Assembly: GCA_027025555.1 (NCBI GenBank)
Contig: JALVQN010000217.1
Location: 1-60,857, forward strand
DNA: 60,857 bases
Source: Desulfobacterales bacterium
GTDB lineage: Bacteria; Desulfobacterota; Desulfobacteria; Desulfobacterales; UBA2156
Reading direction: 5' to 3'
The position numbers and the translations under genes were made by a program. How positions within the stretch are numbered: position 1 is the stretch's first letter; the number at the start of each line of letters is the position of its first letter. Shown here one piece after another: positions 45,663 to 52,802 of this stretch. The notes under the pieces are model-generated. The model had not been told where the DNA came from. It ran no database searches and saw nothing but the letters and a program-made list of their open reading frames with translations.

Positions 45663-47942
45663 ATGAATCGATCGATTCTGGATGCCATTGGCAACACGCC
45701 CCTTGTGGAGATTCGGAAGTTGAATCCCAATTCCAGGGTGAAGATTTTTGCAAAACTGGAATCCTTCAACCCCGGCGGCTCGGTGAAGGACCGACCCGCC
45801 CTTTACATGATCGAAGCCGGAGAACGCAGCGGCCTCCTGACGCCTGAAAAGACCGTGATTGAAGCCACCAGCGGCAATACGGGGATCGGTTTGGCCCTGG
45901 TATGTTCGGTGAAAGGGTACCGGCTCCTGTTGATCATGTCGGAGGCGGTGAGTGAGGAGCGGAGGAAGATCCTGAAGGCCCGGGGAGCAGAGATCCACTT
46001 GACGCCGGGCCACCTGGGCACGGACGGTGCCATAGAGGAGGCCTATCGATTGTCCCGGGAAAACCCGGGCCGGTATTTCATGCCGGATCAGTTCAACAAT
46101 GAAGCCAACTGGCAGGCCCATTACCACAGTACCGCCCGGGAAATCTGGGAACAGACCCGCGGCCGGGTCACCGCTGTCGTGGCGACCCTCGGGACCTCCG
46201 GGACCCTCATGGGTGTATCGAGGCGGATGAAGCAATACAATCCAGCCGTCCGGATCATCGGCGTGGAACCCTACCTGGGACACAAAATCCAGGGGCTTAA
46301 AAACATGAAAGAGGCTTACCGGCCTGAAATCTTCGACAAGGGCCGTTTGGACATCAAGATCAACATCGAAGACGAGGAAGCCTTCGAAATGGCCCGCCGG
46401 CTGGCCAAGGAGGAGGGGATCTTTGCAGGCATGAGCAGCGGTGCGGCCATGGCCATCGCCTGCAAGGAAGCCGCGCTCATGAAAGAGGGGGTCATGGTGG
46501 TGATTCTCCCGGACGGCGGGGAACGGTACCTCAGCACCACGCTCTTTGCAGTGAAAGAGAAGGTGGACTTGAGGCTTTTCAACAGCATGACCCGGAGAAA
46601 AGAGACATTCAAGCCCCTGGTGCCCGGAACCGCCACGGTGTATACCTGCGGTCCCACCGCCCATGACCGAATGGAGGTCGGAGAATGCCGTCGGTTCGTT
46701 TTTTCCGACCTGCTCTGCCGGTATCTCCGATATCGAGGCTATGCGGTCCATCATGTGGTGAACATCACCGATTACGATGATAAGACATTGGCAGGATCGG
46801 AATCCGCCAATCTCTCCCTGTCCCAATTCACCGATAAGTATGTGAAATGGTTTCAAAAGGACCTGGAATCCCTGGGCGTCCAACCGGCCGACCGCATTCC
46901 CCGCACAAGCAGGAACCTCCAAGAGATGGTCCAGATCACCCGTGACCTCAAGAAGGCCGGCTATGCCTATGAGAAGTTAAAATCGGTCTATTTCGATATC
47001 TCCCGGATTCCCGATTACGGAAAGTTGTCCGGAATCGATCTCGATAAGATCAAGCTCGGGGCCACCGTGGATCTTGAAGACTATGAAAAGGAGAATCCCC
47101 GGGATTTCACCCTTCTGAAACGCTCGAAGCTTTCCGAACTCAAGCGCGGCATCTTCGTTAAAACCGAATGGGGCAACGTCCGGCCCTCTTGGCACCTTCA
47201 GTGTGCGGCCACGGCCATGAAATTCATGGGGGAGCGCTACGACATCCATGCCAGCTGCCGGGAGTTCATTTTCCCCCACCATGAAAACCATATCGCCATT
47301 GCCGTGGCGTTAAAAGGACACCCCATGGCCCACTACTGGATCCACTGTGAACAGGTCCTGTTGGATGGCAATCGAAAGGCAACAACAAAGGGGGGAATGC
47401 GCCTCGAGACGCTCTTCGAGGAGGGATTCTCGGGTCGTGAAATCCGGTACTGGCTCCTTTCCAACCACTACCGAAAGCCCCTGGTGTTTGTGCGAAAACG
47501 CCTGGAAGAAGCCAGGCGCGCCTTAAAGCGGATCGATGCGTGTATCCTTTCCCTTAAGCGCCTTCGGGGCGGAACGCCCAATCCTGAAACCGATCAGCTG
47601 GTTTATGATATCAAAAATGGATTCACCTCGGCCATGGATGAGGATCTGAATACCCCCGGCGCCTTGGCCTCCCTCTTTGATAAAATCCGGAAGATCAACA
47701 TCGGCATCAAAGAAAAAAGCATCGATGCCACGGGCGCGGAAAAGATCCTGCGTACGTTTCAGGATATTGACGGTGTTTTGAACCTGTTTCGTTTCCCGGG
47801 GCCTACCCAGGACCCGGAAATCCTCGAGCTTATCCGGCAAAGGGAGGCGGCCCGACAGGCGAAAGACTGGGACACGGCGGACCGTATCCGGGACCGGCTT
47901 CGGTCCATGGGGGTTGAGGTGCGGGACACTCCAATCCGCTGA
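45663..47942 (+). CDS. fusion protein: PLP cysteine synthase (CysK/CysM-like) + cysteinyl-tRNA synthetase-like domain with degenerate HIGH and KMSKS motifs
   Basis: Residues ~1-300: NTPLVEIRKLN, FNPGGSVKDRPA, TSGNTGIGLA, GTSGTLMGV. Residues ~303-759 collinear with CysRS (LRLFNSMTRRKETFKP, YTCGPT, NITDYDDKT, WHLQCAATAMKFMGERYDIHAS, FPHHEN), but HIGH->MEVGE and KMSKS->KATTK. Confidence 0.93.
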   Translation: MNRSILDAIGNTPLVEIRKLNPNSRVKIFAKLESFNPGGSVKDRPALYMIEAGERSGLLTPEKTVIEATSGNTGIGLALVCSVKGYRLLLIMSEAVSEERRKILKARGAEIHLTPGHLGTDGAIEEAYRLSRENPGRYFMPDQFNNEANWQAHYHSTAREIWEQTRGRVTAVVATLGTSGTLMGVSRRMKQYNPAVRIIGVEPYLGHKIQGLKNMKEAYRPEIFDKGRLDIKINIEDEEAFEMARRLAKEEGIFAGMSSGAAMAIACKEAALMKEGVMVVILPDGGERYLSTTLFAVKEKVDLRLFNSMTRRKETFKPLVPGTATVYTCGPTAHDRMEVGECRRFVFSDLLCRYLRYRGYAVHHVVNITDYDDKTLAGSESANLSLSQFTDKYVKWFQKDLESLGVQPADRIPRTSRNLQEMVQITRDLKKAGYAYEKLKSVYFDISRIPDYGKLSGIDLDKIKLGATVDLEDYEKENPRDFTLLKRSKLSELKRGIFVKTEWGNVRPSWHLQCAATAMKFMGERYDIHASCREFIFPHHENHIAIAVALKGHPMAHYWIHCEQVLLDGNRKATTKGGMRLETLFEEGFSGREIRYWLLSNHYRKPLVFVRKRLEEARRALKRIDACILSLKRLRGGTPNPETDQLVYDIKNGFTSAMDEDLNTPGALASLFDKIRKINIGIKEKSIDATGAEKILRTFQDIDGVLNLFRFPGPTQDPEILELIRQREAARQAKDWDTADRIRDRLRSMGVEVRDTPIR

Positions 47943-47967: not shown

Positions 47968-48993
47968 ATGGCACAGGAACAAAGAAGAAAGAGGCGTTTT
48001 GGCATGGAAGCGATATATTTCCCCCATACCGTGATTCCGGAACCTGTTTTGGCCAACCTTGAACATTTGGTCGATTCGGTGGAGGTTCTTCAGCCGTGCC
48101 GCCGCGAGGTTCCTGAATTCATGGCCGCATACGCGGCAAAGGGATTTTTATCCATATATACAGTGATGGCGGACCATAAGGCGCGACTGGAAGCAGCCCT
48201 TCAGGGCTTTGAAGCCTTTGCACAGACGGCCGGACCCGGGGGCGATCTGGTGACCCGATTTGTTGCCCTGAGCAAGGGCTCCCCTGCCCCCGACGATGAA
48301 AGGGTGGCCTCCCAGATCGTCTCCGCCATGAAAAGAGGCCGTGCCGGAACAAGACGCCCGCCGGAAGATCCGGCCTTCGAAGCGGCCCTTTTCCTTTTCA
48401 TGGCCCAAACCTACGACCTCCGCAACATGGAGGTTCAGAAGGATTTGAAGTCCGCTGGCGACACCCAAAAAAAGCTCTTTCAAAGCCTCACGGGGGAGGT
48501 CCCCATGGACGAGAAGACCGACTTTCCCGGCCATGACGCCCCGGACGATTACATGCCCAGGCAACGGCTCGCGGCCTGGTCCAATTTGTTCTTCAACAGG
48601 CGTGCCCTTCAAGGCATGGATAAAGGCCCTGTCTGGATGACGCACAGCCGGCCGGTGGTGGAACACCTCCTGGAAGAGGCGCCGTTTTCCGTGCAGACGG
48701 TGCATCTTGAGGCGACCCCGGGCGCCCCGGTTCCGGAAGGGAGACAGGATCCCTGGAAAGCCGCCTTCCAGGAAGCCCTGTCAAGGGCATGGGAAGATCC
48801 CGGCTTTTGCCTTGACGATCCCCTTGTGGAAGCGTCGATTCCCTTTGGAGGCCCCGCACCCTTTGCGGCCACCGTCCATGCCGTTCACCAGGCCCCTGCG
48901 GCCCTTTTTGGGCGCCGGCTCGACGGTTCCCTCATCCCCGAAGGCCAAGAGGCCTTGGACGGCAAAACATTGTTGGTTTGCTTGGATCCATAA
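47968..48993 (+). CDS. hypothetical protein
   Basis: 341 aa ORF 26 nt downstream of the fusion gene, same strand; no recognised family. Confidence 0.65.
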   Translation: MAQEQRRKRRFGMEAIYFPHTVIPEPVLANLEHLVDSVEVLQPCRREVPEFMAAYAAKGFLSIYTVMADHKARLEAALQGFEAFAQTAGPGGDLVTRFVALSKGSPAPDDERVASQIVSAMKRGRAGTRRPPEDPAFEAALFLFMAQTYDLRNMEVQKDLKSAGDTQKKLFQSLTGEVPMDEKTDFPGHDAPDDYMPRQRLAAWSNLFFNRRALQGMDKGPVWMTHSRPVVEHLLEEAPFSVQTVHLEATPGAPVPEGRQDPWKAAFQEALSRAWEDPGFCLDDPLVEASIPFGGPAPFAATVHAVHQAPAALFGRRLDGSLIPEGQEALDGKTLLVCLDP

Positions 48994-52559: not shown

Positions 52560-52576
52560 ATGATTCCTGAACGCCT

Positions 52577-52660
52577 CCACCGAATCATTTCCCTACGCTG
52601 GAATTACCCAGATCAGGTTCAAAGGGTCCCTTCTCAGGCCTGTTTTGCCGCCCCTGGTGG
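52577..52660 (-). ncRNA. TPP (THI-element) riboswitch
   Basis: Minus strand reads CCACCAGGGGCGG...CCTGAGAAGGGACCCTTTGAACCTGATCTGGGTAATTCCAGCGTAGGGAAATGATTCGGTGG, the canonical THI-box core. Confidence 0.95.
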
Positions 52661-52802
52661 ATTTTCAGGCAGATTACCGGAAATAAAAGACTTTGTCAAG
52701 GCGGTTGAGGCGCGGACCCGGGGTACCGTTTATAGGGTATTTTTTTCGGGACCCTGGATAATCATTGTAAGAAAACGAAAGCTATGGTATTGTTTTGAAG
52801 TT

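Follow-up and report, generated by a model that had tools for sequence, protein, structure and literature searches.

This study asked what a cysteine synthase does with a CysRS-like domain that has lost its ATP-binding motifs. The question is raised by a gene on a 60,857 nucleotide contig of a Desulfobacterales bacterium, referred to here as the window. A first-pass annotation, made from the sequence alone, had described one 759-codon frame joining a cysteine synthase to a CysRS-like domain, and the frame, the coordinates and the fusion were all confirmed (Table 1).

The fusion protein, P0001, was matched by the Pfam profiles PALP (residues 5-284), tRNA-synt_1e (316-618), DALR_2 (654-709) and CysS_C (717-756). 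The CysRS architecture is complete and includes the anticodon-binding domain (ABD), which the first-pass annotation did not mention. The NCBIfam cysS profile scored 338.1 bits, just below its cutoff of 340. The AlphaFold model of P0001 has a mean pLDDT of 86.5 and aligned to the E. coli CysRS-tRNACys complex (chain 1u0b_B) with a TM-score of 0.81 across 475 columns, which bears out the claim that the CysRS fold was kept. An assembly artefact, the alternative named at the outset, was dismissed along with a pseudogene, as full-length fusions recur in many genomes, including named isolates, and are under purifying selection.

Table 1. Coordinates in the window of the fusion gene, its domains and motifs, and the adjoining gene.
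Feature	Coordinates	Strand	Basis
CysM-CysRS-like fusion (P0001)	45663..47942	+	Single open frame, 759 aa plus stop; profile domains; AlphaFold
CysM-type cysteine synthase domain, residues 1-296	45663..46550	+	PALP and cysKM matches; model
Flexible interdomain linker, residues 291-299	46533..46559	+	pLDDT below 50
CysRS-like domain, residues 301-757	46563..47933	+	Pfam, alignment, structure match; nearest archaeal HIGN type in tree
Cys329, first zinc ligand (E. coli C28)	46647..46649	+	Kept in 100/123 fusions
Degenerate HIGH box EVGE, residues 338-341	46674..46685	+	Alignment to canonical CysRS
Cys514, second zinc ligand (E. coli C209)	47202..47204	+	Kept in 99/123 fusions
His539-His543 (HHENH), third and fourth zinc ligands, Glu to His	47277..47291	+	H234 in 123/123, E238 in 79/123
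Degenerate KMSKS loop, residues 571-577	47373..47393	+	Alignment; predicted disordered, pLDDT below 50
Anticodon-binding domain, residues 716-756	47808..47930	+	CysS_C match; R727, R731, W736, D740 = E. coli R423, R427, W432, D436
Orphan gene, 341 aa, co-oriented, downstream of fusion	47968..48993	+	Conserved adjacency

Conservation was examined in an alignment of 123 fusions and 23 unfused canonical CysRS proteins. In the cysteine synthase half, where PALP and cysKM matches span residues 5-295 and the model matched CysM (2bhs) with a TM-score of 0.94, the PLP lysine Lys42, the SGNTG motif (70-74), G177/T178/G180/T181 and S258 were each found in 122-123 of the 123 fusions. An intact PLP cysteine synthase had been proposed, and these catalytic residues are essentially invariant; judged by them, the CysM half is intact.

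The HIGH box, the KMSKS motif and the GG of the HGGG loop have all been lost together in P0001. The HIGH box aligns as first annotated (MEVGE). KMSKS had been matched to KATTK; loss of the motif stands, and the register was off by one residue, the true match being R571-T575 (RKATT). The KIIK of canonical CysRS reads KTLA, and the KMSK lysines are gone. Across the fusions the KMSKS-equivalent loop is variable, and it is disordered in the AlphaFold model. None of the 123 fusions combined HxG[HN] with KxSK. Loss of the aminoacylation motifs, which the first-pass annotation proposed following through homologues, is a family trait. Near-intact members exist (L115, with HLGN/KMSRS, and L147, L148 and L149), so not all 123 fusions can be called dead. 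KMSKS loss alone is not proof of inactivity, since E. coli KMSK lysine mutants supported cell-free translation (PMC5660078), and what argues for inactivity is that HIGH, KMSKS and the GG loop have been lost jointly. The CysRS catalytic-core residues R42, D48, D69, H206, D222, F232-H234, E236 and N237 were kept at near 100% in the fusions.

The zinc site was more variable than first supposed. Replacement of the fourth ligand, Glu, by His is correct for P0001 (residue 543) and a few near relatives, but 79/123 fusions retain Glu. The set C, C, H, E occurs in 74/123 fusions, while P0001 has C, C, H, H. Both zinc cysteines are kept in 98/123 fusions and both are lost in 22/123, mostly in one lineage, a Syntrophobacteraceae-like clade in the tree. 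Because all 22 retain every ABD residue examined, zinc-based cysteine binding is not the universal function of the family, which weakens the earlier idea that a cysteine-binding zinc may persist.

R423, R427 and D436 of E. coli CysRS contact G34 of tRNACys in the complex, as stated in PMC12684709, which cites Hauenstein 2004 for it. The equivalent residues are kept in 122, 120 and 122 of the 123 fusions (98-99%), and the position equivalent to 432 is aromatic in all aligned fusions. The C-terminal W458 tail is absent in about half of the fusions, P0001 among them. Binding of tRNACys had been suggested before; with the anticodon-reading residues nearly invariant, it appears better supported by sequence than first thought. 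The canonical residue was kept on average in 27.5% of cases at ten ATP-site positions (HIGH, KMSKS and the GG of the HGGG loop), in 98.6% at seven ABD positions with no variation in canonical CysRS, and in 62% at other canonical-invariant positions. Column permutation, which ignores kinship among the fusions, gave P values of 0.003 and 0.0003 for these contrasts. Codon comparisons show that the fusion is under purifying selection: pairwise dN/dS was mostly 0.02-0.11 for the CysRS catalytic region, ranged over 0.1-0.39 for the ABD and reached 0.64 at most for the KMSKS loop. Taken as a whole, the ABD changes more quickly than the catalytic core, and folding could be the reason why its conserved residues are kept.

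Full-length fusions were found in 44/57 related genomes; 5 gave partial matches, most of which ran off a contig end or were spread over several contigs, and the remaining 8 had none. In a wider Desulfobacterota sample, using a threshold of E<=1e-110, the fusion was present in 156/395 genomes and 99/245 genera. Isolates with the fusion include Desulfobacter latus AcRS2, Desulfobacter vibrioformis DSM 8776, Desulfoferrobacter suflitae DRH4 and Desulforhabdus sp. TSK. A separate canonical CysRS was identified in 34/34 fusion genomes tested and 4/4 isolates (38/38). The second, canonical cysS that the first-pass annotation advised looking for is present in the window's own assembly (C174). The fusion is thus ruled out as the sole CysRS of the cell. 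The same genome encodes a CysK (C188), adjoining a cysE-like gene. One tRNACys was found in it, with anticodon GCA, so no dedicated odd tRNA was seen; a second tRNACys was sought in this genome and none was detected. No tRNA genes were found within the window, and SepRS gave only a sub-threshold match in the genome (23 of 380 bits).

Upstream of the fusion lie yhaM and tmk, with lptD divergent. A biosynthetic gene cluster or defence context was ruled out, as the same neighbours occur in relatives and there was no PADLOC match. The downstream gene is probably an operon partner, following the fusion in 42/67 loci and often overlapping its stop codon by one base (-1 overlap). In Desulfobacterales this orphan family is translationally coupled to the fusion. 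The orphan protein had no Pfam, NCBIfam, significant PDB sequence or fold match, and the gene was not seen beside more distant fusions (L062, L063, L066-L078, L081). No T-box or other RNA control reached the Rfam gathering score near the fusion gene. Elsewhere in the window a TPP riboswitch scored above it (52573-52665, minus strand).

The trees placed the fused CysRS-like domains in one group apart from all unfused CysRS proteins, with support of 100/99 in the first tree and 100 in the second, which was a quick search. This grouping is consistent with a single fusion event. Nearest to the fused domains was not the hosts' own CysRS but the HIGN-type CysRS of a DPANN archaeal phylum, HIGN being the normal form of the HIGH box in archaeal-type CysRS. 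In two archaeal genomes (L093/L220 and L221) an archaeal-type CysRS gene adjoins an unfused cysM. At L093 this gene is the only CysRS found and has an intact KMSKS motif, and genes for homocysteine biosynthesis and for a NIL-ferredoxin are among its neighbours; the L093 CysM and CysS are 64% and 42% identical to the respective fusion halves. Unfused cysM-cysS pairs were seen only in these two archaeal genomes, and the stand-alone CysM relatives from Nitrospirota and Desulfobacterota had no CysRS gene next to them. The simplest account is that an ancestral cysM-cysS operon became fused and then lost aminoacylation, an account in which direction and root are inferred and the archaeal contig, from a metagenome-assembled genome (MAG), could be misbinned.

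Stand-alone CysM proteins of this kind were also noted elsewhere. One of the same subfamily (L218:1037-5328) is clustered with NifU, a NifS-like gene, NIL-ferredoxin and FdhD. Those of Nitrospirota (L094-L104) share the H[KR]IQGLKNM loop with the fusion CysM, and the six that were aligned have a conserved C-terminal C-A-x-CPP tail.

What, then, does the domain do? We consider the chances about even that it is a non-aminoacylating module that still recognises tRNACys and, being covalently attached, couples it to cysteine synthase, with sensing of the charging state or tethering as its most likely role. A tRNACys-binding pseudo-synthetase would be the most economical explanation, as cysteine synthase chemistry and the anticodon-recognition residues are retained while ATP-dependent activation is lost. 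The presence of the ABD counts in favour, as no such domain exists in paralogues of CysRS that make no use of the anticodon (MshC and the L174 and L175 proteins described below). The CysRS-like domain would bind tRNACys through the GCA anticodon and would be unable to charge it. Bound tRNACys, most simply the uncharged form that would accumulate when cysteine is short, would stimulate or localise synthesis by the CysM half, and cysteine production would thereby follow translation demand. In most members the zinc site may also detect cysteine, either free or as the cysteinyl end of Cys-tRNA; the site is missing from one main lineage and is dispensable. The coupling probably serves to keep synthesis in step with tRNACys charging; tethering alone is a lesser possibility. 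The AlphaFold model, with its disordered linker, gave no evidence of a fixed interface to transmit allostery between the halves.

It is possible, if rather doubtful, that the enzyme is gated by or dependent on tRNACys, so that charged or uncharged tRNACys on the dead synthetase directly controls β-replacement or carries the substrate for it. If so, cysteine synthesis and tRNACys would be linked here independently in origin of SepRS/SepCysS. A tRNA would then directly meter, at the protein level, a bacterial enzyme that makes its amino acid, with no need of T-boxes or attenuators, and the family would offer a natural gradient of synthetases, some near-intact and others fully degenerate, along which charging decays and anticodon recognition stays. 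Desulfobacterota, many of them sulfate reducers, carry the family widely; it is present in isolates and yields specific predictions for purified proteins.

Several other roles were weighed. The domain might be a feedback sensor in which cysteine at the zinc site inhibits or tunes CysM and tRNA is irrelevant. HisZ, a HisRS paralogue without adenylation activity that mediates histidine feedback (PMC9437257), is a precedent, and 98 fusions have both zinc cysteines; however, the 22 that lack them keep the fusion and all ABD residues, and cysteine sensing has no need of anticodon-reading residues, which makes this role unlikely. Co-localisation without sensing, in which the domain tethers CysM to tRNACys or canonical CysRS for local cysteine delivery, seems no more probable. 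It would suit the disordered linker and the conserved tRNA-reading residues, and low free cysteine in sulfide-rich cells would make it plausibly beneficial, but the strong constraint on the catalytic core (residues near 100%) suggests more than a tether. It is improbable that the CysRS-like domain shows an activated seryl-tRNACys to the CysM site for conversion to Cys-tRNACys. The juxtaposition of tRNACys-recognition residues with an intact β-replacement enzyme would allow this, and SepRS/SepCysS shows that the overall logic exists (PMC5424206). Against it, the genome has no SepRS above threshold and does encode canonical CysRS and a cysE-cysK pair, no supplier of activated seryl-tRNACys is known, and nothing in the model points to a channel linking the halves.

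A second active CysRS, with aminoacylation surviving the altered motifs, is hardly probable. The few near-intact fusions are early-branching, HIGN is normal in the archaeal type, and the E. coli enzyme still supported cell-free translation with K-to-A changes in its KMSK motif (PMC5660078). Yet P0001 lost all three ATP-site elements together, the HxG[HN] plus KxSK combination is missing throughout, the KMSKS-equivalent loop is disordered and variable, and every fusion genome checked has a separate canonical CysRS. The first-pass annotation had also raised a repurposed ligase in low-molecular-weight thiol chemistry. A cysteine ligase of the MshC kind would have the CysRS fold to draw on, as well as the cysteine pocket that most members keep, but MshC is ATP-dependent (PMC9437257) and has no ABD, whereas the fusion has a decayed ATP site, a retained ABD and housekeeping neighbours (tmk, yhaM, lptD) with no thiol pathway; we regard this idea as very improbable. 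Least probable of all is a CysRS-type cysteine persulfide synthase (CPERS). CysRS proteins do have PLP-dependent persulfide activity, but the lysines it requires (KIIK and KMSK; PMC5660078) are mostly lost here, as the P0001 sequence shows.

Our preferred reading, a tRNACys-recognising module coupled to cysteine synthase, was compared with known systems. No published description of a CysM-CysRS fusion was found in the open-access literature, with most subscription journals and preprints outside the scope of the search. Each half shares fold and domain order with its canonical counterpart (CysRS 1u0b and 8qhp; CysM 2bhs), from which the fusion differs in joining the two and in the lost synthetase ATP motifs. 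SepRS/SepCysS also links cysteine formation to tRNACys, but uses other enzyme families and requires SepRS. Cupin-MetRS fusions, known from comparative genomics, likewise unite a class I synthetase paralogue with the domain of a metabolic enzyme and exist in addition to a conventional synthetase, but are of the MetRS type, with a proposed peptide-bond chemistry (PMC2922099).

Among CysRS paralogues, MshC, the mycothiol cysteine ligase, shares the cysteine pocket; its match to the CysRS-like query domain was limited to residues 2-370, and the MshC profile scored 163 bits on P0001 against a cutoff of 485. CysRS* of Desulfobacterales (Mukai et al. 2017) is a second CysRS in the same bacterial group; as described in the review PMC9437257, it has no ABD and charges a SelC-like tRNA, whereas the fusion domain has an ABD, has lost the ATP motifs and lies in a window without a tRNA gene. 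Some Desulfobacterota carry a third CysRS-like gene with KMSKS intact, a divergent zinc region (WNIQD and RHHDYN in L174) and no ABD (L174:2535-3785 and L175:3350-4597), and third PF01406 matches also occur in genomes G449 and G450. The L174 and L175 genes are possibly CysRS*-like; no tRNA gene was found beside either. The fusion shows the reverse of the pattern in these genes and in MshC, which keep KMSKS or ATP chemistry and have no ABD.

A parallel is HisZ, where a synthetase paralogue that lacks adenylation activity is attached to an enzyme of its own amino acid's pathway. P0001 has likewise lost its activation motifs and is fused to an enzyme of its own pathway, and so belongs, as HisZ does, with synthetase paralogues recruited to amino acid biosynthesis (PMC9437257). 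HisZ differs in being a separate class II regulatory subunit of ATP phosphoribosyltransferase, the first enzyme of its pathway, while the fusion has a class I domain covalently joined to the last enzyme and keeps the ABD. By its residues, the fusion appears unlike every example compared here in having kept anticodon recognition while activation was lost.
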